From positions 88,542 through 152,541 of the forward strand of contig NZ_JACJQU010000006.1 in assembly GCF_014696825.1 (NCBI RefSeq): a stretch of DNA of 64,000 bases, given 5' to 3'. Below the pieces are notes generated by a model that saw nothing but the letters and a program-made list of their open reading frames with translations, had not been told where the DNA came from and searched no databases. A program made the position numbers and the translations under genes. Shown here in pieces: positions 44,641 through 58,504 of this stretch (positions are counted from its first letter, which is position 1; every line of letters starts with the position of its first letter). This DNA is from Anabaena sphaerica FACHB-251. GTDB taxonomy: Bacteria; Cyanobacteriota; Cyanobacteriia; Cyanobacteriales; Nostocaceae.

Positions 44641-45254
44641 GTTGCAACATTAAATAATCCCTATTAGGGATTGAAACCATTAAAAACCTCTGGTAAGCAA
44701 TTTAAATGCAGATATCAGGTTGCAACATTAAATAATCCCTATTAGGGATTGAAACTCAATAACTATGAGCAAATAAAAATTGCTCATAGTTGCAACATTA
44801 AATAATCCCTATTAGGGATTGAAACCTTTCTTCTGGAGAATAATTGATGATTGTTTACCAGTTGCAACATTAAATAATCCCTATTAGGGATTGAAACAGG
44901 AGTCGAGCCGGTGGCGATCGCCCAAGTTGCAAGTTGCAACATTAAATAATCCCTATTAGGGATTGAAACGTCTTTATATCAAATATATTGATGTAAAAAA
45001 GCACGGTTGCAACATTAAATAATCCCTATTAGGGATTGAAACAATAAATTCTCATGCCTCAGCCCCTCAAAAATTTTGTTGCAACATTAAATAATCCCTA
45101 TTAGGGATTGAAACCGCTCGATTTTGGATGGTAGAGAAGCGGATAAAGTTGCAACATTAAATAATCCCTATTAGGGATTGAAACAGAGAAAAACGTCAAT
45201 CCCTAATGGAGCGCGTCAAACGTGGCAGTTGCAACATTAAATAATCCCTATTAG
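44641..45254 (+). CRISPR. CRISPR array, 8 full repeats plus truncated ninth
   Basis: Repeat of 37 bases starting GTTGCAACATTAAATAATCC and ending ATTAGGGATTGAAAC. Eight copies are identical (starts 44641, 44719, 44789, 44861, 44933, 45006, 45078, 45148). The ninth (45228-45254) lacks its last 10 bases and runs into a palindromic repeat. Spacer lengths are 41, 33, 35, 35, 36, 35, 33 and 43. The ATTGAAAC end and the decayed distal repeat place the leader on the left, so transcription runs to the right. No cas gene is in the window, so type cannot be assigned. Confidence 0.97.
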
Positions 45255-45697
45255 AACCCAACATTTACAAGGGTTTGTTGGGTTTCACTTTGTTCAACCC
45301 AACCTACAAAAATCCTTAACCGAACAGTATTGGGACAGGACTTACGCAAAATTTCTCTGAAACCCTCTTTCCTTCGTATCCTTGGTTCCTATGCCTTCGG
45401 CACGCTTCGCGAACGTAGTTCATTCTTTCGCAAGTTCTAACAAATTAAATGCACAACAGCTTAATATTGGGCGAAATTTTACAATACAAAAGAGCGATCG
45501 CTAAAATTCCCCTAAGAGGTTGTTTGAAAAGTATTAGATGAAACCAATAATCTTCAGCAACTTAACCCCCCTTCCCCCCTTCCCTACGAGGGAATGAGGG
45601 TTTCAAAGCCTCTCCCCGCGTCGGGGAGAGGTTTGGAGAGGGGTTTATTTATACATTCAAAACTTTTAAAACATCCCCTAATAAAAATAGTTAACCT
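45255..45697. other. Repeat-filled stretch after the CRISPR array
   Basis: Palindrome AACCCAACATTTACAAGG ... TTGTTGGGTT directly follows the broken repeat. A lone AGGACTTACGCAAA end of element B lies at 45337, and MITE-like element A copy 2 at 45515-45678. No gene. Confidence 0.55.
45515..45678. repeat. MITE-like element A, copy 2
   Basis: About 164 bases with ends AGAGGTTGTTTGAAAAGT and ACTTTTAAAACATCCCC, nearly identical to copies at 7899 and 57496; flanked by TA dinucleotides on both sides. Confidence 0.85.
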
Positions 45698-46066: not shown

Positions 46067-46245
46067 CTGTGATTCACCAGCTTTGGCAGTAAAACAGCGA
46101 TTTCTATTTCTACTTCTGATTTAACCACAAAAACAGCCTCTCCGCTATCTACTTCCTGCCTCAGCCCTGTATTTTCCCGTCTTTTCCAGTACCATTAAAA
46201 ACAAACAAATTGATACCAGAAAAATAACGCTTATTTCTTTATACA

Positions 46246-46445
46246 CGAAAAAGCGCCTGAGTCCTTTTCGCTTACTCAGACGCTCCCCCGTATAACTTTA
46301 TACCATCTCACTGTGTAATGCAACATTTTAAATCCTGCACACTGCTATTAGGGGAAGCACTGCTAGGATAACCTGTAACAAACATGAATGAAGTGGTATC
46401 ACTCCTTGCATTAAATAAGAATATCTCTTTTGACACCAAATAGCT
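46246..46445 (-). ncRNA. Candidate small RNA with Rho-independent terminator
   Basis: On the minus strand, GCGTCTGAGT (46283-46274), loop AAGCGAAAAGG, ACTCAGGCGC, then TTTTT form a good terminator. Upstream is about 150 bases without a reading frame; the region contains GTTACAGGTTATCC and CAGTGTGCAGGATTT. An RNA start is not identified; AAGAGATATTCTTATTTAAT could be a promoter -10 area. Presence is inferred from the unexplained terminator. Confidence 0.4.
46253..46283 (-). terminator. Minus-strand terminator
   Basis: 10-base stem, 11-base loop, one G-T/A-C mismatch in the stem, followed by five T on the minus strand. No protein gene on that strand ends here. Confidence 0.7.
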
Positions 46446-47376
46446 AGTGTAGAGAGTGACAGTTTATTAACTGACACGAGTTAAAAACGACGCAACCGGG
46501 TTAGTAACTTACAAGACAAAGACAAACAGTAAACATTTTCTGAAAAAAGTATAAAAAATCTCAGGCTTTTGGCCAATAAATCCAATACAACCTCATCAAA
46601 CCCATGAGCCACGAAATCAAAATTGTAGCCTGATTTACTGAATTTTATCGGTGAAGAATCCCCCTAGCATCCACAGATAATGGCTTAGAGAATTGGCTCT
46701 AGCCGATTTAGCAGCCAGAAAACCCAACCTCCAGAAAAGCTGAATGTATTTTTTCTCCCCCCCAACCCTGAAAATTGCGGTTTTGGAGTGCTTGTATCTA
46801 TTTGCAAAACATAGTGATTAAGTAAGAAGTTATCCTCGCTACCAACCACAACTAGAAAAAAGCTACCTTTGTTTTTGAGAACTAATCAGCCCAAAGCCCA
46901 CCCCTCTGGAGTTTTGACACAAAATATCGCCTGCTTGCATCTCTACAGTTGCAGTTTTGTAAAACTTCGCCCAATCTATAGACAAATATTACCTAAAATA
47001 TCCTCAGTGCCATTTTGACCGAAAAAAATTGTAGCTCCGACCCACTTTGCCGACAACTATTGTGGCTGCCATATAGCATAGCAAGCCTAACTGATCAGAG
47101 CTTAGTAGTCTTACGGACGGTTCTGGGATGCAACACCGTAGGACTAACTAAATTACGGAGAGTGAATAATTGGTTATTTGTCACGAAGCCTAAATAAACA
47201 GTAGTTGTCCATAATAGATCATTCGATATCTGGAGGTAAAAAATAGAGCCGAGAATCCCCTTCCATGGAACATCTCTACAAAAATTCTAGAAGATACAAA
47301 TTTAAATTCGGTCGATGTCTATTAAAAGTAATTACCCACAGGATCTAAACTTTTACCCCAAATTTTCCTTAATTTT

Positions 47377-49092
47377 ATGAACAAAATTCTGATTATTGAA
47401 GATGATGCTCAAATACGAGACAACATTCAACAAATTCTCGACCTAGAGGGGTTCAGTACGATCACAGCTGAAGATGGATGGCACGGTTTACAGATGGCTG
47501 AACAACATCAGCCAGATATGATTATCTGCGATCTGATGATGCCTCATTTAGATGGCTATGGACTGATTAAAGCATTGCGTCAAAAGCCAGGAACTGCCGC
47601 TATTCCGTTCATTTTTATCACCGCTAAATCAGAAAGAGCGGATCTGCGTCGAGCGATGGAACTTGGTGCGGATGACTATTTAACCAAGCCGTTTCAAGTA
47701 GATGAATTTCTCCAGGTGATTACGACTCGGCTGGAAAAACACCAAATAGTTAGCCAGTATTATCGAGGTCAGATTGAGCAGATGGAATCTCAGCTTAATT
47801 ATCTGGCTCGTCATGATAGCTTAACTGGCTTACCTAATCAACTATTTGTAGAAGAGCATTTCAATCAAATCCGCCTTCAAGCGTACAGTCAAGGTCAACT
47901 ACTCCCCTTGTTACTGATTGATATAGATATCCTCAACCGCAATAAATTCTTATTTGAACCAACCTTGAGGTGTTTATTACTCAAAGCTATAGCTGAACGA
48001 TTAAGTGAGTTGAATTCTCCACATCAAATTATTGACTTAATCGCTTACTTAAAAACCGACCAAATTGTACTCTTGTTAAAGCCAAATCAAGACAGTCAAG
48101 TTGCTGCTGATATTGCTCAACAAATTTTAGATCATCTATCACAACCTTTATTAGTCAATCATCAGCAAATCTCTGTTAAAACTAAAATTGGGATTGTTTG
48201 TTATCCTGATGACGGGCTGCAACTCAATGAACTACTGACTCATGCAGAATTAGCCCTGGAACATTTTAAACATGAAGATACTACTTCTTATCATTTCTAC
48301 AATCAAGAACTTTTCAATATTCTCTGTAGAAAAATTATTTTGGAAACTGATTTATGGCACGCCCTAGAACGAAATGAGTTTGAACTTTACTATCAGCCTC
48401 AATGTAATGTCAAAACTGGAAAATTTGTCGGTGTGGAAGCTTTAATCCGCTGGCGACATCCAGAATATGGACTTGTTTCTCCAGGCGAATTTATTCCTAT
48501 TTCTGAAGAATCAGGTTTTATTATTCCTTTAGGGAAATGGATTTTGAAAACTGCTTGCTCCCAATTAGAAGATTTGCGATCGCAAGGATTAGTAAATTTG
48601 GATTTAGCGGTTAATATATCAGCAAATCAGTTTAAACAACAAAATTTTATTCAAGACAAAACTTTTGTGCGTTCAACCATTGAAAAGGTAGCTTTTAGAA
48701 TTTCTCAAGACGCAGGGAGAGCATCTGATTTAACTATAGAAATATCAGATGCCATGATCAATATTTCTCAATTAAAGCTGAGTAAAATTGCTGAAGAAAT
48801 AATTGACAATGCTTTTAAATTTTCTCAACCAAATACACCTGTAAAAATTATAGGTTGTAGCAGTTTTCATGGGTTTAATTTGTATGTAATTGACAGCGGT
48901 CGAGGCATGAATAAAGAGCAAATTGCTAGTGTCGGGGGTTATGTACAGTTTGAACGCAAAATGTATGAACAGCAAGGTTCCGGTTTAGGATTATCAATTG
49001 CTAAGAGATTGGTGGAAATCCACGGAGGAGAACTTTCAATTGAGAGCTTACCTGGTAAACAAACCATTATCCGCATGGTTCTGCCTCAGTAA
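47377..49092 (+). CDS. Chimeric REC - GGDEF-like - partial EAL - HATPase protein
   Basis: 571 residues. Receiver (1-125) with DD at 9-10 and Asp52; a degenerate GGDEF domain (about 145-300) whose active site reads YLKTDQIVLL, so no cyclase; the first half of an EAL domain (about 325-425: YYQPQCNVKTGKFVGVEAL, then NISANQF) that breaks off before the catalytic second half; and from residue 428 a histidine-kinase ATPase domain (EEIIDNAFKF, YVIDSGRGM, GSGLGLSIAK). There is no His-containing dimerisation domain. The last 143 residues match those of the kinase at 56112-57200 at about three quarters of positions. It can bind ATP and probably transmits receiver state, but cannot autophosphorylate. 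Confidence 0.85.
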   Translation: MNKILIIEDDAQIRDNIQQILDLEGFSTITAEDGWHGLQMAEQHQPDMIICDLMMPHLDGYGLIKALRQKPGTAAIPFIFITAKSERADLRRAMELGADDYLTKPFQVDEFLQVITTRLEKHQIVSQYYRGQIEQMESQLNYLARHDSLTGLPNQLFVEEHFNQIRLQAYSQGQLLPLLLIDIDILNRNKFLFEPTLRCLLLKAIAERLSELNSPHQIIDLIAYLKTDQIVLLLKPNQDSQVAADIAQQILDHLSQPLLVNHQQISVKTKIGIVCYPDDGLQLNELLTHAELALEHFKHEDTTSYHFYNQELFNILCRKIILETDLWHALERNEFELYYQPQCNVKTGKFVGVEALIRWRHPEYGLVSPGEFIPISEESGFIIPLGKWILKTACSQLEDLRSQGLVNLDLAVNISANQFKQQNFIQDKTFVRSTIEKVAFRISQDAGRASDLTIEISDAMINISQLKLSKIAEEIIDNAFKFSQPNTPVKIIGCSSFHGFNLYVIDSGRGMNKEQIASVGGYVQFERKMYEQQGSGLGLSIAKRLVEIHGGELSIESLPGKQTIIRMVLPQ

Positions 49093-49322
49093 TAACGTCA
49101 GTTGCAAGTTCGTCGGTTATGAATGAAAAAACAAAATCCTCATTGTTATAGCTGTAGCCAGGATAATGAGGACATGATGAGTCCTTGAAACCAAAGAATA
49201 ACAAGGGTTTTACTCTTGCCTCTTGCATGAGTGCCTCTTGCCTTCTGCTATAAATTGTAAGTGGGTTAATGGGGGAATACAGAAGCTTATTTACAAACAA
49301 TAATTGACTTGAGAAATTTTGG

Positions 49323-50342
49323 CTAAATTACTGCTGCTGCTAACATTTTGATTGTGCCATTATCAGCGTCTATTTCTACCTCTAAACCTACAGGCACTGT
49401 AAATTTATCTTTGATATGACCAATCATAGAACCATACCAAGCGGGAATATCTAAAGGCTTGATATGTTGTTTTAGTATTTGCATTAAAGTAAAGGATTGT
49501 TCATCTGAAGCTTGACAATTTGTGCATTGTCCAAAAATAAAACCTGCAATTTGATTGAGAATACCAGCATTTTTTAACTGCGTCAGCATTCTGTCTATGC
49601 GATAAGGATCTTCACCTATATCTTCCACAAATAAAATACTGTTATACCATGATGGCAAATAAGGAGAACCTACCATAGCAGCTACAACTGATAAATTACC
49701 TCCAATTAGTTTACCCCTAGCTTTACCCGGTGTAATTATTTCTATTTTGCCCTCTTTGGTGGAGTTATTTTCCATTGTTAATTTTTCCCCGTTAAATAAG
49801 ATCCTTTTAAAGTAATCAACGGTAAATTGATTCCAAGTAGAAGTAGCAACTGCGCCATGAAAGGTAATTAATTGACTCCGAGCGTTAATTGCTAATAATA
49901 AGGAAGTAATATCGCTATAGCCGATGATAATTTTCGGATGGGAACGGATCAGCGGATAATTAAGTAAAGGTAAAATCCGATTACAACCCCAACCGCCACG
50001 CATCGCCATAATTACTTTTACCGATTTATCGGTAAACATGGTATGAATATCTTGGGCGCGGTTTATATCTGTTCCTGCTAAATATCCATCACGATCTAAA
50101 ATATGTGCGCCTGTTATTACCTTCAGCCCTAAGTTGGTAAAAGTTTGTTTTGCATCTTCTATATCTTTGGGTTCAATAATACCAGCAGGAGAAACCAAGC
50201 CTATCGTATCCCCTATTTTTAGACGTGGTGGTTTGATGGTGGTTTGTGGTGAAAGTTGACTTTGGGCGATAACTGGGGAAATTTGGGCTGCTAAGGTCGT
50301 TATTCCTAAAGTGGTGAGAAATTGACGGCGTTTGATGGTCAT
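49323..50342 (-). CDS. LD-carboxypeptidase (peptidase S66), exported
   Basis: 339 residues. A Tat-like signal (MTIKRRQFLTT, then hydrophobic, cleavage after VIAQS) suggests periplasmic export. The S66 fold shows IGLVSPAG, MAMRGGWGCNRILPLL and the nucleophile block IIIGYSDITSLLLAIN, with FVEDIGEDPYRIDRML near the C-terminal Glu/His region. This family removes the terminal D-Ala from L,D-tetrapeptides in peptidoglycan recycling (LdcA), or acts as the microcin-resistance MccF type. The Tat-like signal is unusual relative to cytoplasmic LdcA of E. coli. Confidence 0.9.
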   Translation of the reverse strand: MTIKRRQFLTTLGITTLAAQISPVIAQSQLSPQTTIKPPRLKIGDTIGLVSPAGIIEPKDIEDAKQTFTNLGLKVITGAHILDRDGYLAGTDINRAQDIHTMFTDKSVKVIMAMRGGWGCNRILPLLNYPLIRSHPKIIIGYSDITSLLLAINARSQLITFHGAVATSTWNQFTVDYFKRILFNGEKLTMENNSTKEGKIEIITPGKARGKLIGGNLSVVAAMVGSPYLPSWYNSILFVEDIGEDPYRIDRMLTQLKNAGILNQIAGFIFGQCTNCQASDEQSFTLMQILKQHIKPLDIPAWYGSMIGHIKDKFTVPVGLEVEIDADNGTIKMLAAAVI

Positions 50343-50678
50343 CGGGAATGTAGGCTGAACAAGGACTATAACAAAGTTTCAACTATAAGTGACACAACCC
50401 TACGGGAAATATGAATTAAATTTAAAGTTTTCTTAAGAAATTACCAAAAAAATTGACCCTAAAAATGGTAGATAAAACCAAGTGTAATCCAGTAATTGAG
50501 CGAAATTTGCACAAATATTGTATTGCTATTGGCTCACTCTGAGCAGAAAAAAAAGAAGCTCAAATTCTTAAATTCCCTATAGCTGATATACTATCTTATG
50601 ATAGGTAGCTAAAGTATTATACTTGGCAATATCATAAGATGGTGTTTATCTGACCACGCATTTAAACGTGTATAAGCT
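50343..50678. other. Gene-free stretch with inverted repeat
   Basis: ATCTTATGAT (50593-50602) and ATCATAAGAT (50631-50640) form an inverted repeat 40 bases before the hypothetical gene at 50679, possibly regulatory. Otherwise AT-rich. Confidence 0.45.
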
Positions 50679-50960
50679 ATGGAAACTACTGCAAATTCAA
50701 TTCCAGCATTTGAACAATTATTTAGACAAAAACTCAAACTAAATAATTGCAAACTCAAAAAGAAAAGACAAGAGAATAATTATGAAATTACTACTCCATC
50801 TAAAGACGTTTTTTTGATGTATTGGTGCGAATTTCCAGAAATTAACTTGATCTATCAACATATAGGGGTACGCACACCACAGACTGGAGTTTATGAAAAG
50901 GCTATCCGCTCCCATATTAATTTTTGTGTCAGTAGTATTAAGGATAAACCGCTCTCTTAA
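50679..50960 (+). CDS. Hypothetical protein (93 aa)
   Basis: METTANSIPAFEQLFRQKLKL, a lysine-rich middle and EINLIYQHIGVRTPQTGVYEKAIRSHINFC. It looks like a small soluble protein. No recognised family and no strong ribosome site; the composition is protein-like. Confidence 0.5.
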   Translation: METTANSIPAFEQLFRQKLKLNNCKLKKKRQENNYEITTPSKDVFLMYWCEFPEINLIYQHIGVRTPQTGVYEKAIRSHINFCVSSIKDKPLS

Positions 50961-51027
50961 TTAAGATTCTTGGTAAAACCTTTACTATTCAAATAACAGA
51001 CAGAATCATACAGCACAATTGAGGAGT

Positions 51028-51060
51028 AGAGACGTTCTGGTGGAACGTCTCTACAGGGTT
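51028..51060. repeat. GACGTTCC-type palindromic repeat, copy 2
   Basis: AGACGTTCTGGTGGAACGTC and CTACAGGGTT, like copies near 26604 and 51950. Confidence 0.6.
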
Positions 51061-51100
51061 AAAACCTGCTTGATACTTAATTTTTGATTTAAATTTTTTC

Positions 51101-51191
51101 AGGACTTACGCAAACAGAACCAAAGTAGCGGTAATTCATGAATTACCACTACGCCAGAATAAGGTTTTTAGTCAAATCTTGCGTAAGTCCT
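51101..51191. repeat. MITE-like element B, copy 3 (short form)
   Basis: 91 bases with AGGACTTACGCAA and TTGCGTAAGTCCT ends. It lacks about 22 internal bases present in the 113-base copies. Confidence 0.8.
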
Positions 51192-51309
51192 ATTTTTACT
51201 TCATTTACCTGCAATACGCTGTAATTATACTCTTGTCAGTGTTTGTGTAAAATAACTGACTGGAAAACTAGCCGCAAGCCCCTGGCTTTAGACGTGGAAA
51301 GGTTCAACT

Positions 51310-51687
51310 ATGGCACTAAAACGCTTTATTATCGAAATGGGCATGGGTGTAGACCAGCACGGACAGGAACCGACGGTAGCAGCAGCAAGGGCGGTGAGAA
51401 ATGCGATCGCTCACAATGCCTTACTCGGTATTATGGAAGTAGTCGGTTTAAAAGACCCCAATGACATGATTGTAGAAGTCAAGGTAGCCGTACCTTACCC
51501 CGAACAAGTACGGGAAGCAGAGGTATTAGCTGTCCTTCCCTTCGGTCGCAAATCTCTAACAGTAGAAGCTGGGGGAATGGTAATTGATGGGTTAGCGATC
51601 GCTTCCCTCAACGATAAAAATGACCAAATGTTGATAGCAGTTGCAGCAGTGACAGTTTTAGTTGAAACAGCAGAACCGAGAAACTAA
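51310..51687 (+). CDS. Lin0512 family protein
   Basis: 125 residues. MALKRFIIEMGMGVDQHGQ, then TVAAARAVRNAIAHNALLGI and AVPYPEQV with FGRKSLTVEAGGMVIDGL match Lin0512/TIGR02058, a small, widely distributed family of unknown function. Length is standard. It is the only clear gene in the 50-52 kb part. Confidence 0.85.
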   Translation: MALKRFIIEMGMGVDQHGQEPTVAAARAVRNAIAHNALLGIMEVVGLKDPNDMIVEVKVAVPYPEQVREAEVLAVLPFGRKSLTVEAGGMVIDGLAIASLNDKNDQMLIAVAAVTVLVETAEPRN

Positions 51688-52183
51688 GTAAGTCGGCGGG
51701 AAAAAACCGAAGTATGTAACAAAAAGTAAATTCACCAAAACCCTCTTCCCCGTTCCCCGTTAAGAGTTCCCTGTTCCCTTGTCATAACGACAATTTTTAA
51801 CGCCCACTTACTTAATCAACCATGTTTTGATTTTCAGTTTGTACCTCATTCACTTGCAATCTGCTGTAAGCTTTTCAACTTTCCATGTGTATTTTCTGCG
51901 CTAAACTAAATTTATTGGGATTTATATGAGACATCTGGTGAAAAAGTAAAGACGTTTCATGGAACGTCTCTACCAGGGTTTCAGGTAAGGCATATTTACA
52001 CATACAGCAGGAGTCAGGAGTCAGGAGTAAAACTGGCTTTGTGTATAGGTTTCAATTTAGATTCTCTACCTCATTGATCTGCAATCTGCTGTATTTATTT
52101 CTCACCAGATGTTTATCGAGATTTAATGGGATCATCTCTGGCAGTAAGTTCAATAAACCAACTACTTCCATCACTACAGAGCA
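51688..52183. other. Gene-free stretch
   Basis: Holds a GACGTTTCATGGAACGTC palindrome (51951-51968), CCCTGTTCC iterations near 51750-51780 and repeated CATTTACCTGCAATCTGCTGT-like sequences (about 51208, 51850, 52075). No gene. Confidence 0.5.
51950..51982. repeat. GACGTTCC-type palindromic repeat, copy 3
   Basis: AAGACGTTTCATGGAACGTC followed by TCTACCAGGGTTT; third copy of the family. Confidence 0.6.
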
Positions 52184-52522
52184 ATGTCTCAAGAGCCTAA
52201 AAAATCACTCCAAATTCAGGAAATTATCGGACTAAAACCGCAACACTTTGCCGATTTAATCAGAACTGCACAATTAGTTTTTGACCCCTGTGCGGGACTG
52301 TCTGGCAGAAATCTAAAAGTTGATTGGGAAGACTTTGGGATTCCGCGCGATGTAGCGGATAATCTCAGAGAAATTGGCCAAGAATATCAGTATGCTTCTC
52401 CTTACATTCCCCCTGAAGTAGTTTGGGGTAAGTTAACCACTGAATCACGGATTTGGTTCATTGAAAATAAAGATAGTTTGTGGCGGTTTGAAGAAATTTT
52501 CCCTGCACTTGACGAAGACTAG
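52184..52522 (+). CDS. Conserved cyanobacterial hypothetical protein (112 aa)
   Basis: Soluble protein with LKPQHFADLIRTAQLVFDP, VDWEDFGIPRDVADNLREIG and RIWFIENKDSLWRFEEIFP, an acidic C terminus, no signal peptide. I do not recognise a named family, but the composition is fully protein-like. Confidence 0.7.
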   Translation: MSQEPKKSLQIQEIIGLKPQHFADLIRTAQLVFDPCAGLSGRNLKVDWEDFGIPRDVADNLREIGQEYQYASPYIPPEVVWGKLTTESRIWFIENKDSLWRFEEIFPALDED

Positions 52523-52640
52523 AAAGCTTGATCATTCTCAGCAATATAGGGTAAAGGGTAAAGGTTTTTTCGTTTCACCTTACCCCTTCCCCTGGAATCG
52601 AAACCCGCCAGATTGAATACAGTGCTACTTCCTGACAAAA

Positions 52641-53357
52641 TCAATCCCCCAGTAATTTATAATTTCGGAGTAACTTTGTATTTTCAGCAGTCAGTAATTC
52701 CTGCAAACTATCTACCTCATTCAATATATCGAGTTCCTGCGTGTATGCTTCTTTTAAAATTGACAGATATTTCTCCCGATTTTTTTCATCCTTAGCCTGT
52801 TTGAGCATATAAATTGCCATATTAATACTAGAAAGGGGATTGCGTAAGTCCTGGGAGAATTTCTCTAACAAGTTTCCTCGAATTTGTGCAAGTTGCTGGG
52901 AGTTTTGCAATTCAGTTCGATTCTTTTTTATTTCCTGTTGGAGTATTTCTGTATTCTGAGATTCTTTCAGATATGCTTGATTTGAAATTGAATGTCTCTC
53001 CAAACGTGCTTTGACTGCTTGTAAAATTTCAAACGGCTCAAACGGTTTGGTAATGTAATCATCAGCCCCCAACCCCATACCTTGACGGAAATCATTGCGA
53101 TCTGCTTTAGCGGTGAGGAAAATTAGGGGAATATCAGCAGTCTTAGGTTCTTGTCGTAGTTCTGTTAACACTTCATAGCCATTTAACCCTGGCATCATAA
53201 TGTCACAGAGAATCAAATCCGGGTTTTTTCTTTTAGCTAATTGCAAGCCGATAATGCCGTCTTCAGCAACAATAACAGAGAAATCTGCTAGTTCTAAAAT
53301 TTCTTGGAGATTAGACAGAATTTGAGTTTCGTCTTCAATCACTAGAATTAAGCTCAT
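52641..53357 (-). CDS. Receiver protein with kinase-like helix lacking His
   Basis: 238 residues. Receiver (1-120) with ILVIEDE, CDIMMPGLNG (Asp52) and YITKPFEP. A coiled coil follows (120-165), then a HisKA-like helix: NLLEKFSQDLRNPLSSINMA, where the phosphoacceptor His of the H-box (S-H-E-L-R) is replaced by Gln-Asp. No ATPase domain. It probably dimerises and may act as a decoy or phosphate-independent partner of a kinase. The remnant of a kinase lies just upstream on the same strand (53384-53520), so this may have been part of a kinase-regulator pair. Confidence 0.8.
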   Translation of the reverse strand: MSLILVIEDETQILSNLQEILELADFSVIVAEDGIIGLQLAKRKNPDLILCDIMMPGLNGYEVLTELRQEPKTADIPLIFLTAKADRNDFRQGMGLGADDYITKPFEPFEILQAVKARLERHSISNQAYLKESQNTEILQQEIKKNRTELQNSQQLAQIRGNLLEKFSQDLRNPLSSINMAIYMLKQAKDEKNREKYLSILKEAYTQELDILNEVDSLQELLTAENTKLLRNYKLLGD

Positions 53358-53383
53358 AATTGAGAGGCAACCTATATAGAGAC

Positions 53384-53520
53384 TTATCTATCAGTATTGT
53401 TGACTAATTCCGGCAAATAAATCACAGATTGTAAGGGAATTGTCACAATATTTACAATAACAGTTGTTCCCATTCCCATTTCGCTATTCACAGCGATTGA
53501 TCCGTCGTGCAATTGCTGGA
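53384..53520 (-). pseudogene. C-terminal histidine kinase remnant
   Basis: The minus strand encodes LLQQLHDGSIAVNSEMGMGT and TVIVNIVTIPLQSV, then a stop at 53384; this is the final G2-box region of a histidine-kinase ATPase domain. Nothing upstream on this strand continues it; the IS607-type recombinase gene begins about 115 bases further on, in opposite orientation. I infer that an insertion or deletion cut the kinase gene. Confidence 0.65.
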
Positions 53521-53635
53521 GTAGCACAAGTTAGTTTCCAAGGACAAGGTATTGTTAAGTTTTTGAGAGTTTATAGACAAATGTTCCCAAATATAGACTT
53601 CTGCACTAAAATAATTGTGGAAGTCGGTAAAAACT

Positions 53636-54205
53636 ATGAAGTTATCAGATTACGCTAAATCAATAGGTGTTAGCTATAAAACAGCTTGGCGAATGTGGCA
53701 ACGTGGTGAGCTTAATGCAACTCAATTGCCGACTGGGACTGTCATAGTTAAATTTAATGTTCCTACTAATAAGGGTGTTGTAATTTATGCCAGGGTTAGC
53801 AGTAGTGAAAATAAATCTAATTTAGAAAGTCAAGCTCAAAGGCTTGAAGACTATTGCACCGCAAAAGGTTATCAAATTGTTAGAGTAGTTAAGGAAGTTG
53901 GTAGCGGTGTAAATGATAACCGACGTAAGTTAATAGATTTACTCAATCAAGATGACTATTCGTTAATTGTTTGTGAGCATAAAGACAGGTTATCTAGGGT
54001 TGGGTTTAACTATCTAAAAGTGCTTCTTAATCAGTTAGGTAGAGATATTGAAGTAGTTAATTTAGCGACAGAAAGGACAGATGATCTGATGCACGATTTT
54101 GTCTCCATAATCACTTCTTTCTGTGCAAGGCTTTATTCAATTAGACGACGTACTCGTAAAACTGAATGCCTGATTAAATGCTTGCAGGAAGACGAATGCA
54201 GATAG
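53636..54205 (+). CDS. tnpA: IS607 family serine recombinase (TnpA)
   Basis: 189 residues from the ATG at 53636. An N-terminal MerR-type HTH (MKLSDYAKSIGVSYKTAWRM) is followed by a serine-recombinase catalytic domain: VVIYARVSSSENKSN with the nucleophilic Ser, EDYCTAKGYQIV, GSGVNDNRRKL, CEHKDRLSRVGF. This order (HTH then resolvase) is typical of IS607 transposases. The C terminus ends in YSIRRRTRKTE. The enzyme appears intact. The element lies between two broken kinase fragments; its ends are not identified. Confidence 0.92.
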   Translation: MKLSDYAKSIGVSYKTAWRMWQRGELNATQLPTGTVIVKFNVPTNKGVVIYARVSSSENKSNLESQAQRLEDYCTAKGYQIVRVVKEVGSGVNDNRRKLIDLLNQDDYSLIVCEHKDRLSRVGFNYLKVLLNQLGRDIEVVNLATERTDDLMHDFVSIITSFCARLYSIRRRTRKTECLIKCLQEDECR

Positions 54206-54300
54206 TTGACAAACACATAACAGCAGGAGTCACTCGATTTTGGATTGACGATTTTTCCATCCTGAACAACCCAGACCTATACCAATTTTTTTTAATCTAA
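54196..54300 (+). pseudogene. Possible tnpB remnant of the IS607 element
   Basis: Starts ATG inside the last codons of tnpA, an overlap typical of IS607 tnpA-tnpB pairs, and reads MQIVDKHITAGVTRFWIDDF. The frame closes after 34 residues. Only the position supports it; it may be noise. Confidence 0.3.
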
Positions 54301-54541
54301 AATCTAATATCTAAAATTCCCGGTCAGGAGTCAGGAGTAAAATCCTTTTTTAGTGGGAGTTTCATTATCAATTGATGTCCTAACCACCCTGTCCATGGCT
54401 ATAGAATATGCCATACAGGGACAAATGAAGGGTTAGTAACTGAATGCAGCAAGAGCTAGATCGCCTACTTCAAAGTAATGAAAGCTACCGCCCCTTTGTA
54501 GATAAAATAACTCTGGTGCTGCGAGGGTATAAAATTAGTTT

Positions 54542-54757
54542 AGCGATCGCCTGAGTGCAGACCAAAAACAGAGACACCTAGAGACTATCCAAGAAACTAT
54601 CAATCACATGACTCAACTTCTTGATGACGTACTAATGATTAACCGCACCGAATCTGAAAATATGGAATTTAAACCAGAAGCCGCAGATATTATTGGCTTC
54701 TGTCGCCATCTCCCAGAGGAAATAGCAACTATAGTCAAAATTCCTTTTCAAATATAG
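54542..54757 (+). pseudogene. Histidine kinase remnant (His-helix region)
   Basis: Reading SDRLSADQKQRHLETIQETI, then HMTQLLDDVLMINRTESE and FCRHLPEEIATIV. This matches the intact kinase at 54887-56101 (SDRLSEERKQEHLQTIQSTI, LDDVLMINRAEAE, FCRHLKEEIETSI) with no start codon. The phosphoacceptor and the ATPase parts are absent. It looks like leftover of a tandem duplication of the next gene. A 36-codon frame from 54444 (MQQELDRLLQSNESYRPF) precedes it in another frame and may be part of the same lost gene. Confidence 0.7.
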
Positions 54758-54886
54758 CAGGAATCAGAAGTCAGGAGTTAAAATCTTGTGCTATATGGCT
54801 TCTTCCGTAAATAGGTGATAATTAAAAATAATCAATCACCAATCACTAATGACCAATTACTAATTACCAATCGCAAGGACGAGACT

Positions 54887-56101
54887 GTGGAGAATTTACC
54901 TAAAAATAGCACCATTTTAGTAGTTGATGACAATCCGGTTAATTTAAAAGTTCTTGGTCATACATTGAACGCCGCAGGTTACACAGTCCAAATGGAACTA
55001 AATGGGCTAAATGTCATCCAAAAAGTTTATGACAGTAGTCCCAATTTAATCCTGCTAGATATTATGTTGCCTGATATTAGCGGATTTGAAATTTGTGAGC
55101 AGCTTCAAGCCGATCCTCTTACCCAAGGTATCCCTATAATTTTTATGACGGCTCTGACTGATACTATGGATAAGGTGAAAGGTTTTAGTTTAGGTGCTGT
55201 AGACTATATAACTAAACCATTTCAAAAAGAGGAACTACTAGCTCGTGTACGTACTCATTTACATTTACAGAAGTTAATTACATCTTTAGAACTGCAAAAC
55301 CAGGAACTCAGACAACTTACACAACGGAATGAGGACTTAGAAAATAGAGTTGCGGAACGGACAGCAGAATTAAAAGAAGCACTAGAAAAGGAAAAGGAAT
55401 TAAGCCAATTAAAATCGCGGTTTATTACCATGGCATCCCACGAGTTTCGTACACCTTTAGCCATTATTTCCTCATCATCGGGTATTTTACAAAAGTTTAG
55501 CGATCGCCTCAGTGAAGAAAGAAAACAGGAACATCTACAAACAATCCAAAGCACCATCAAGCATATAACTCAAATCCTTGATGATGTATTGATGATTAAC
55601 CGCGCCGAAGCCGAGAAGATAGAATTACACTTAGAAGCATTAGATATCATCCCGTTCTGTCGTCATCTCAAAGAGGAAATAGAAACTAGTATTAGCGAAC
55701 ATAAAATTAATTTCTCTTTAGAATTAGGCGAGGAAATTTCTAACAATTCTCTGATTGTTCAGTTCGATCAAAAACTGTTACGGCAAATTCTCACCAATAT
55801 CCTTACTAATGCTATTAAGTATTCTCCTGATCACAATGTAATTAATTTTAGTTTGACTCAAGAAAATAATCAAATTATATTTAAAATTAGCGATCGCGGC
55901 CTTGGTATTCCTGAAGCAGATCAAGCTAATCTATTTGCACCTTTTCATCGAGCATCTAACGTCGGTACGATTTCTGGAACTGGGTTAGGGTTGGCCATAG
56001 TCAAAAAATGTCTAGATTTGCACAAAGGGGAAATTAGCGTAGATAGTCGAGTGGGAGAGGGAACAACATTTACAGTTAGGATTCCTTTTTTAAGAAGATA
56101 A
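54887..56101 (+). CDS. Receiver-histidine kinase hybrid
   Basis: 404 residues from a GTG at 54887 with AAGGA upstream; the in-frame ATG at 54815 would add 24 residues encoded by heptamer repeat DNA, so I reject it. Receiver (1-130: ILVVDDNPVNL, LLDIMLPDISG), coiled coil (145-180, NRVAERTAELKEALEKEKEL), HisKA with FITMASHEFRTPLAII and HATPase (LTNILTNAIKYS, DRGLGIP, GTGLGLAIVKK). All catalytic motifs are intact. A soluble kinase regulated by its own receiver, common in filamentous cyanobacteria. Neighbour kinases suggest a phosphorelay cluster. Confidence 0.9.
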   Translation: MENLPKNSTILVVDDNPVNLKVLGHTLNAAGYTVQMELNGLNVIQKVYDSSPNLILLDIMLPDISGFEICEQLQADPLTQGIPIIFMTALTDTMDKVKGFSLGAVDYITKPFQKEELLARVRTHLHLQKLITSLELQNQELRQLTQRNEDLENRVAERTAELKEALEKEKELSQLKSRFITMASHEFRTPLAIISSSSGILQKFSDRLSEERKQEHLQTIQSTIKHITQILDDVLMINRAEAEKIELHLEALDIIPFCRHLKEEIETSISEHKINFSLELGEEISNNSLIVQFDQKLLRQILTNILTNAIKYSPDHNVINFSLTQENNQIIFKISDRGLGIPEADQANLFAPFHRASNVGTISGTGLGLAIVKKCLDLHKGEISVDSRVGEGTTFTVRIPFLRR

Positions 56102-56111
56102 AAATCTGACC

Positions 56112-57200
56112 CTACTGCGGCAGCACAATCTTAATAATGGTTTGTTTTTCAGGTACGCTCTCAATGCTAAACTCTCCTCCGTGCAGTTCCACTAACCTCT
56201 TAGCAATTGATAATCCCAGACCAGAACCTTGTTGTTCATACATTTTCCGTTCAAATTGGACATAAGCCCCAACCTTAGTAATTTGCTCATTGGTTAGTCC
56301 CCGACCGTGATCAATCACATACAAGTTAAAGGTATTTTTACTGCTATGCCCTATGATTTTTACAGGTGTATTGGGCTGGGAAAATTTAAAAGCATTATCA
56401 ATTATTTCTTCAGCTATTTTACTGAGCTTGGTTGAAGAAATTTTGACTATGGCATCTGATATTTCTATACTTAAATCAGCCGACCTATTTGCATTTTGAG
56501 CAATTTTTACAGCTAGATTTTCCACCACTGACTGCACGAAAGTTTTCGCCCCGTTATTCCTCAGAGCCACAATTCTTTCTGGGTTAGATACTAATAACTC
56601 CAGGTCTGCATACATGAGGAAATTAACAGTCAGTCTATGCAGCCTTAGAGCCGCTTGATGAATTGATTCTACCATTTCTAAATTTTCACGGGAAAGGTTT
56701 TCCTCCTCAAGAATCAATAAATTTGATAGTCCTAGAATATGATTGAGAGGAGTATTGATTTCATGGGGGAGTGAATGACTGATAGAACTGCTTAAATCAT
56801 TTAATTTTTGTTGAGTTTGTTCGTCAGCTATTGCTTGTTTATCCAATCGAGTAGTGATGGCTTGTAGTAATTCATCAGGACGAAAAGGCTTGGTTAGGTA
56901 ATCATCTGCACCCAGTTCCATCCCTCTACGTAAATCTGACCATTCCGATTTAGCAGTTAAGAAAATTAAAGGAATTGTGGCAGTAGAACTATCCTGACGG
57001 AGTTGAGTTAATACACTATAGCCATCTAACTCAGGCATCATCAAATCACAAAGAATCAAATCAGGATGCTTATCTTTAGCCAATTGCAAACCCTTTAACC
57101 CATTTTCTGCAACTATCGCCTCAAAGTCTGATAATTCCAATATTTCTCGGATATTGTTTCTGATTTGAGCTTCATCTTCAATAATGAGAATTGTATTCAT
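56112..57200 (-). CDS. Receiver-histidine kinase hybrid
   Basis: 362 residues. Receiver (1-125) with DE 9-10, Asp52 (CDLMMPELDG) and YLTKPFRP. HisKA-like helix with SLPHEINTPLNHILG (His146). HATPase (about 240-362) with EEIIDNAFKF, YVIDHGRGL and GSGLGLSIAK. The C-terminal 143 residues match the end of the chimeric protein at 47377-49092. Converges with the kinase at 54887-56101 (10-base gap). Confidence 0.92.
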   Translation of the reverse strand: MNTILIIEDEAQIRNNIREILELSDFEAIVAENGLKGLQLAKDKHPDLILCDLMMPELDGYSVLTQLRQDSSTATIPLIFLTAKSEWSDLRRGMELGADDYLTKPFRPDELLQAITTRLDKQAIADEQTQQKLNDLSSSISHSLPHEINTPLNHILGLSNLLILEEENLSRENLEMVESIHQAALRLHRLTVNFLMYADLELLVSNPERIVALRNNGAKTFVQSVVENLAVKIAQNANRSADLSIEISDAIVKISSTKLSKIAEEIIDNAFKFSQPNTPVKIIGHSSKNTFNLYVIDHGRGLTNEQITKVGAYVQFERKMYEQQGSGLGLSIAKRLVELHGGEFSIESVPEKQTIIKIVLPQ

Positions 57201-57796
57201 ATAGATTTGGGTGAAATTTCAGATGGCTTTTTTAGTTAATCTTGATACCCTATTATCACCAATTCCCAGTTCTTTGCGCTTCGTGATAAATGAGGAATAG
57301 TTACTTAATATAATTTAGCTGATCATACTGTCTAGTGAGTAGAGCCTTACCGTAGATATACTGAACTAGCTCCGTAGGTTGAAGAGATTGAAGTTAAGAG
57401 GGAACAGGGAACGGGCAACAGGGAACAGGGGAATCCCCATAATTAAAATTAGGGGCTTTAAACCCTACATTCGGGGCTAATTCTTTTTCCTGTTAAGAGG
57501 GTGTTTGAAAAGTATTAGATGAAACCAATAATCTTCAGCAACCTAACCCCCATTCCCTCGTAGGGAAGGGGGGTTTCAAAGTCTCTCCCCGCGTCGGGGA
57601 GAGTTTTGGAGAGGGGTTTATTTATACATTCAAAACTTTTAAAACATCCTCTAAGAGTTCCCGCCCCGAAGGGGCTTGGTAAAGTCTTGGAAATTTAATT
57701 CTTGTACAGTTACGTTACGTGATGATTTTAATGATCTTAACCCGGAATGGGGCTAAAGATAATGGAATTAATGACTAATATAATATCTGACAGAAA
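57201..57796. other. Gene-free stretch with MITE-like element A copy 3
   Basis: GGGAACAGGG-type iterations near 57400-57435 and element A at 57496-57651. No gene. Confidence 0.5.
57496..57651. repeat. MITE-like element A, copy 3
   Basis: About 156 bases with ends AGAGGGTGTTTGAAAAGT and ACTTTTAAAACATCCTC; flanked by TA on both sides. Confidence 0.8.
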
Positions 57797-58333
57797 ATGC
57801 TTATGAGAATTTCGGCTTTGAGGTTTTTGCTAACTTCTCTGTGGTTAATAGTTGGCTTTGTAGCTGCGAATTTGAACAATAGGAGTACGGTTTTAGCGGA
57901 AGCGCCCCCGGAAGTTTCTCAATTAATTAATGGTAAACAAATTACTGTCAATAAATCTGAGTTTGGGGTGAGGATAGTTGATTCTCAGGGTAAAGCTAAT
58001 TTTTTTCCCACAACTAAAGTGCCACTGAAAAAAGGTGATGCTTATGGTTGGCGAATTAAACTGCAAAATTACCGGGGTAAAGTCAAATGGAGGGAAGTGC
58101 TGCGTTTACCAAAAACCCCAGAAACTTGGGCTACACAGGAGAAAGATGAGAATTTTTCTTTATCTGCTGATGGAACTACAGCCATCACAAAACGCACCCA
58201 AACAGTTACAAATGGTGTGATTGAGAATTTTTGGAAAATAGCTCCTGGTGATCCTCTTGGTAAACATAGAATAGAGGTCTATATTGATGACCGTCTAATT
58301 GCAATTTTTGAATTTGAAACCGTGGAATTTTAG
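57797..58333 (+). CDS. Exported hypothetical protein (178 aa)
   Basis: An N-terminal signal-peptide-like segment (MLMRISALRFLLTSLWLIVGFVAA) with likely cleavage before EAPPEV, then a beta-rich mature domain (GWRIKLQNYRGKVKWREVLRLP ... GKHRIEVYIDDRLIAIFEFE). An ATG two codons downstream is equally possible. It may be a small exported beta-sandwich protein. I recognise no named family. Confidence 0.7.
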   Translation: MLMRISALRFLLTSLWLIVGFVAANLNNRSTVLAEAPPEVSQLINGKQITVNKSEFGVRIVDSQGKANFFPTTKVPLKKGDAYGWRIKLQNYRGKVKWREVLRLPKTPETWATQEKDENFSLSADGTTAITKRTQTVTNGVIENFWKIAPGDPLGKHRIEVYIDDRLIAIFEFETVEF

Positions 58334-58504
58334 GCACAGGAAGCAGAAACTAGGAAGTGAACTACCTACACCAACCTGACGGTACAGTGTAGGCTTCCCA
58401 ATTCATTTTCATGAGTTGCTGTTTAAGGTAAAAAGCTGGTAATTTTAGGTTATTAAAGAAGTCTGAATCGTGAAAATATTCAAACTTCTTCAATTATCAG
58501 GCTT

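Follow-up and report, generated by a model that had tools for sequence, protein, structure and literature searches.

How did one open reading frame (ORF) in the genome of Anabaena sphaerica FACHB-251 come to join the front of an EAL-type regulator to the ATPase end of a histidine kinase, and is its product of any use to the cell? The ORF lies on the forward strand at 47377–49092 of the window (the whole stretch of DNA analysed, 64,000 nucleotides) and encodes 571 amino acids from an ATG start, with the order REC - degenerate GGDEF - partial EAL - HATPase_c (CA) according to the ORF and its Pfam matches. The receiver (REC) domain occupies 47386–47721 (residues 4–115, Response_reg, 1e-29), and the GGDEF domain 47806–48279 (residues 144–301, 5.6e-21) with YLKTDQ as a degenerate signature. 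The first part of an EAL domain follows at 48349–48654 (residues 325–426), where the EALIRW and VNIS motifs are present and the later catalytic motifs are gone; its Pfam match spans residues 325–437 and covers only profile positions 3–104 of 236 (2.9e-28). After codon 427 (48655–48657), a junction codon whose parentage is uncertain on comparison with relatives, the kinase ATPase (CA) domain runs over 48658–49089 (residues 428–571; HATPase_c at residues 465–570, 4.8e-19), and no HisKA domain was found among the Pfam matches of the ORF up to an E value of 0.1. The initial annotation, read from the sequence without database searches, had described a receiver, a degenerate GGDEF, the first half of an EAL and a HATPase domain from residue 428, and this description was borne out by Pfam and by alignment.

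The catalytic motifs of EAL phosphodiesterases are EAL, N, ELTE, DDFGTG, K, EGVET and QG, and the ATP-binding boxes of HATPase_c are named N, G1 and G2. Compared with a complete EAL domain bearing its catalytic motifs, the fusion has the EAL and VNIS motifs only; YLKTDQ stands at the site of the GG(D/E)EF signature of diguanylate cyclases, and the HisKA/DHp domain of histidine kinases with its phosphoacceptor His is missing. The N, G1 and G2 boxes are all present (motifs at 473, 504 and 525), as are the acidic pair, phosphoacceptor Asp, Thr/Ser and Lys of a receiver (E8, D9, D52, T82 and K104, in columns invariant across 29 rows). As to the degenerate GGDEF, also remarked on in the initial annotation, the alignment indicates that it is inherited, family-wide and old rather than damage, because none of the 19 family members aligned, of which 18 are full-length genes and one is the fusion, has the signature. 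All 18 full-length REC-GGDEF-EAL genes keep the EAL, ELTE, DDFGT and QG motifs (three have LKIE or LKVD for LKID, and one has EGAET for EGVET), so that the parent EAL genes resemble phosphodiesterases whose GGDEF domain is degenerate, the function being taken from family knowledge. By the same kind of knowledge the fusion product should not hydrolyse c-di-GMP, because ELTE, DDFGTG, LKID, EGVET and QG are gone, and should not autophosphorylate on His, because the DHp helix is missing; phosphorylation of REC and binding of ATP are possible, judging by the residues kept.

The last 144 residues of the fusion align without gaps to the C terminus of a REC-HisKA-HATPase kinase at 56112–57200 on the reverse strand, a paralog of the tail by Pfam and alignment (434 nt at 78.8% DNA identity, 75–76% identity of the proteins), which confirmed an earlier hand count of about 75 percent. 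The shared tail starts at K428 (48658), and the EAL part is traceable to about residue 426, where relatives such as L149 and L156 have QENFIQ and after which they diverge. The view that two signalling genes were joined into a protein that retains an ATP-binding domain and lacks the His helix is supported by Pfam, by the DNA alignment and by the relatives described below. Neither convincing repeats or transposon ends nor any long repeat were found at the join, and a tblastn search (E 0.1) of nine intergenic stretches from 46067 to 58504 gave no remnants of EAL or kinase genes.

The front is common to the fusion, to REC-GGDEF-EAL regulators of related Nostocaceae and to a paralog in the same genome (C14): all have REC, a GGDEF-like domain with a similar degenerate signature and the first part of EAL, at 56–72% identity to the fusion in whole-length search matches (C14 63%, G064:C23 72%). 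Whereas these regulators have a complete EAL, that of the fusion ends soon after VNIS, with the later catalytic motifs gone and the CA domain next. With REC-HisKA-HATPase kinases the fusion has the CA domain from the linker on in common (75% to 56112, 53–72% to the tandem kinases discussed below), but it is without their own REC and HisKA (DHp) and hence without the phosphoacceptor His.

In a tree of the front (21 rows), the fusion was the basal member of a clade of 13 rows (98/97), the other 12 grouping together at 89/86. In 8 of these 12 rows, all from related Nostocaceae, a REC-HisKA-HATPase gene stands on the same strand 3' of the REC-GGDEF-EAL gene (L150, L152, L153, L154, L155, L055, L158 and L159; duplicate loci are L150 = L052, from Anabaena sp. 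UHCC 0204, L153 = L053, L154 = L057 and L158 = L058), although the pair of L153/L053, counted among the eight, has internal stops in both genes. A tandem kinase is missing from L149, L151, L156 and L165 of this paired clade and from all seven rows of its sister clade, which includes C14, and is present in the outgroup row L167. An intact REC-GGDEF-EAL gene, which was of interest from the start, exists as C14, but it is not of the nearest parent type: C14 was tried as the nearest parent of the front and rejected (constrained tree, p-AU 2e-43), the front lying in the paired clade instead.

We consider it probable from these comparisons that the fusion gene arose by an in-frame deletion within a tandem REC-GGDEF-EAL / REC-HisKA-HATPase pair, an origin we prefer over general recombination because relatives carry both parent types as tandem neighbours. 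Judging from those relatives, the ancestor would have held REC-GGDEF-EAL followed by REC-HisKA-HATPase on the same strand, and an in-frame deletion of about 1.15–1.35 kb would have taken the second part of EAL, the intergenic gap and the REC and HisKA of the kinase, leaving a single ORF. The receiver, phosphorylation residues included, and the ATP-binding CA domain can both be read in the present gene. The size of the deletion, taken from pair coordinates as the distance between EAL codon 427 and the kinase codon matching K428, is about 1.15 kb for L150 and L152, 1.24 kb for L155 and 1.35 kb for L154, and the intergenic gaps of six measured pairs are 25, 44, 49, 49, 130 and 254 bp. Searched with the L149 sequence, the genome gave no near copy elsewhere of the second half of EAL (best match C14, 71%), nor, with the L155 sequence, of the first 219 residues of the kinase (best match 56112, 74%). 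The break was compared with the pairs of relatives rather than with the true parent, and microhomology at the deletion cannot be shown.

The tail pointed to the same type of source. In a tree of 56 rows, whose bootstrap had not fully settled, the fusion paired at 100/87 with L023, which is the kinase of the tandem pair G027:C26 (L155), and 56112 grouped with L051 and L024 (89/77); in a tree of 18 rows the fusion and L023 were again together (91/78), with most forks open. Unlike the tail, the front sits at the base of the paired clade and not beside the G027 copy, which counts against a deletion origin, and constraining it with L155 (the G027 copy) and L156 was not rejected (p-AU 0.10). As far as the trees go, both halves agree on a paired-type origin, though not on one exact sister.

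Recombination had been proposed initially as the joining event, with 56112 as the implied partner. The joining itself holds; that an EAL gene recombined with the 56112 kinase, or with a copy of it, is unlikely in our judgement, in view of the tandem neighbours in relatives, for which one in-frame deletion is enough, and of the tail trees. In favour of such an event, the closest match to the tail in both DNA and protein is 56112, which lies 7 kb from the fusion in inverted orientation and seems to have lost an EAL gene just 5' of it, and a clade of the fusion and 56112 is not rejected at 0.05 (18-row test: cost of 8.7 log units, p-AU 0.082). Yet the nearest relatives of 56112 are kinases of other genomes (78% identity to L052; L051 and L022 nearest at a path of 0.24) rather than the fusion tail (path 0.3), from which it is separated in both best tail trees, and a tandem type of source is at hand in relatives. 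A recent copy of 56112 as tail donor was accordingly set aside as disfavoured, short of formal exclusion at that p-AU. That the join is an artefact, the assembler having skipped about 1.2 kb between two genes, is hardly credible: the genome is a draft of 44 contigs, and the lack of near copies of the missing halves is what an artefact would also give, but the join is in frame and has no long repeat, though the trace left by a collapsed repeat might be small. The gene is a real but local oddity, in which two tandem neighbours seem to have become one ORF by a single deletion, and a readable example of how architecture can change in multi-domain signalling proteins, the CA domain being taken whole from its linker onwards and EAL being cut inside the domain.

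An old gene would be expected to recur in relatives, as had been pointed out initially; the same fusion was found in none of the genomes searched, in which the genus is represented by one genome, that of the window itself. A whole-length query against 217 genomes of the family (own included, E 1e-100) gave matches that, in other genomes, all end at query residue 426–458. Queries across the junction (388 genomes of the order at 1e-55 and 386 of the phylum at 1e-45, own included) gave matches elsewhere that start near the junction, or cover the EAL part alone, or, in the ordinary REC-kinase ORFs of G100:C57 and G027:C26, start 18–31 residues ahead of the junction. A second case was therefore found in 0 of 216 other family, 0 of 387 order and 0 of 385 phylum genomes, these sets overlapping and the thresholds being strict, with 6–8 candidates scored per genome, so that a diverged case could be missed; an old and widespread architecture was rejected on this result. 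Some junction-query matches in other genomes start as many as about 42 residues ahead of the junction, and 11 such loci were inspected as candidates for further fusions. Nine again matched before query residue 40, with main-match ORFs of 357–507 aa; by a crude text test seven of these carry a REC signature (L104 and L050 do not), and none has a half-EAL match at E 1e-3. The early match of L155 came only via its separate EAL gene and L187 gave none, the kinases of both being ordinary 363-aa ORFs. We attribute the early starts to kinase helices aligning weakly with the EAL part and discarded these candidates. Matches to both half-EAL and CA at E 1e-6 occur in 45 of 192 sequences (191 loci and the window), and they are joined in the window gene only (window, L001 and L021 being the same gene). 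No title or abstract opening among the literature matches listed describes this architecture.

The flanking genes 43498, 45698, 49323, 51310, 52184 and 57797 are in the same order in G100 (L185) and G061 (L183), both of which are without the fusion and without the 52641–56112 cluster. Three other genes stand at the place of the fusion in G061, only about 143 bp separate the points matching 46487 and 49321 in G100, where the site is empty, and 49323 and 45698 adjoin in G099 (L184), where the fusion is missing. With nothing at the site in G100 and G099 and other genes in its place in G061, the comparison indicates that the tandem pair, or the fusion itself, arrived at this locus; an intact tandem pair at this place was seen in no genome examined, which also counts against a deletion origin. 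In G031 (L191), at the recA/57797 site, the EAL gene is reduced to a REC stub of 105 aa (L191:8928–9245), next to which comes a kinase 80% identical to 56112, and about 190 bp 5' of the stub match the region directly 5' of 56112 (57201–57392). Because of this match, an EAL gene was probably also lost near 56112, between promoter region and kinase, by a separate event. A partial EAL gene precedes the kinase in L054/L188 (G064; L188:10875–11258) and the gene pair of G223:C62 has stops; by these sequences, loss or breakage of the pair has happened repeatedly in the family.

A 16-base element, TTATTTGTCACGAAGC, lies on the forward strand at 47174–47189, 203 bases 5' of the fusion start. The pattern TTATTTATCACGAAGC is found at −203 from the fusion, −93 from 56112, −117 from the G031 stub and −91 to −109 in L149, L151, L152, L153, L161, L162 and L167, these last being 7 of the 17 other REC-GGDEF-EAL genes examined for close matches. 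Allowing up to 4 mismatches, and with a pattern derived from the same sequences later counted, the element is in 10 of 28 upstream regions compared with 163 of 5600 shuffled ones (48 occurrences in 407,982 strand-bases of loci); the 18 regions without it include those of L150, L154, L155, L156, L158, L159, L165 and C14. It was dismissed as a mark of the paired clade, being present in members of both clades. The element suggests an old upstream region retained in the fusion, and it says little about function.

Whether the product is used is a separate matter. The ORF may equally well be a functionless relic, a deletion product open by chance, which concerns use and is compatible with a deletion origin; a selected function is a tentative proposition, and we judge a relic or bystander slightly likelier. 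A relic would fit the absence of the fusion from all other genomes searched, the other damage to the same pair (G031 stub, L054/L188 partial gene, G223:C62 stops, EAL loss before 56112) and the junction, residues 412–427, being modelled at a confidence below 50. Otherwise-invariant positions are changed in the fusion at 4 of 54 sites in REC, 8 of 68 in GGDEF, 1 of 42 in half-EAL and 0 of 44 in CA (13 front rows; 17 tail rows, CA being compared with 16 other kinases); the REC and GGDEF fractions are the largest among the 13 front rows, as a relic would predict, and also fit the fusion being the most divergent there. Against a relic stand the 571 open codons, the unchanged invariant sites of CA and the omega values of the fusion branch (front 0.18, REC 0.15–0.19, GGDEF 0.24, half-EAL 0.08–0.11 and tail 0.09–0.15, from three-taxon codon models on chosen triples), which are rough owing to large distances (neutral t 1.4–3.9) and in no triple were significantly above the other branches. 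The half-EAL likewise gave no relaxation by which to date the deletion. Because the branch includes time before the deletion, these values do not prove selection on the fused protein, and a recent relic is compatible with them. If unused, the product would add to the various forms of damage seen in a gene pair repeatedly lost or broken in the family; if used, it would represent a CA protein without DHp, made in nature and joined to a receiver.

An AlphaFold model of the fusion (29 rows) has a mean pLDDT of 73.9 and a pTM of 0.40, with REC confident, CA fair except for a weak stretch at 518–536, and a junction of the low confidence given above, so the arrangement of the domains cannot be read from it. 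The best 50 of 1751 fold-search matches are REC, REC-GGDEF, GGDEF-EAL, hybrid kinase or kinase-regulator entries, with nothing decisive. If it acts at all, the fusion is most likely a phosphate acceptor by its REC, and its ATPase-type tail may make contact with a partner kinase. Split histidine kinases are known from Rhodobacter sphaeroides CheA3/CheA4, in which the ATP-binding kinase part is reported to be on a protein without the phosphotransfer part (PMC3591291), as in the fusion; unlike in them, any partner of the fusion is hypothetical, its DHp-only neighbour 52641 has no His and its CA was seemingly acquired by deletion. The defining property of a split kinase is that its CA protein phosphorylates the phosphotransfer domain of another protein. 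By analogy with such kinases (PMC3591291), a role in trans on 56112 is conceivable, in which a REC-gated CA of a newly born split-kinase component would phosphorylate or block the DHp helix of 56112; we regard this as quite improbable. If true, a c-di-GMP phosphodiesterase-type output would have been rewired into a phosphorelay input.

The neighbour in question, a REC-HisKA protein without HATPase (52641–53357, reverse strand), has an H-box without the phosphoacceptor His: it reads SQDLRNPL, with Q where 56112 has His, and five relatives aligned over the box have Q or E. With Q in place of His, this DHp-only protein is, by its sequence, no obvious partner for the CA of the fusion. Its full-length relatives are in the same cluster and on the same strand in L149, L152 and L159, and relatives of similar length (237–245 aa) in L149, L152, L159 and L167 are also without the His, making it a conserved pseudo-DHp protein. 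A further REC-HisKA-HATPase kinase (54815–56101, forward strand) is convergent with 56112, and the same arrangement, a similar gene convergent with the tandem kinase, is seen in L150 and L158. Elsewhere around the locus, a CRISPR array occupies 44641–45184 (8 Rfam CRISPR-DR5 matches, 37-nt repeats, starts 70–78 bases apart), and a direct repeat of about 165 bp, 89% identical, flanks the region at 45513–45681 and 57494–57654, part of it also matching L182. The stretch 46165–46885 is without an ORF of 90 aa, has no Rfam match at gathering score and is 77.7% identical to G061 DNA beside a pentapeptide gene. Between the signalling genes, an ORF at 53615–54205 carries a resolvase N-terminal domain, which we take to resemble IS607-type TnpA.
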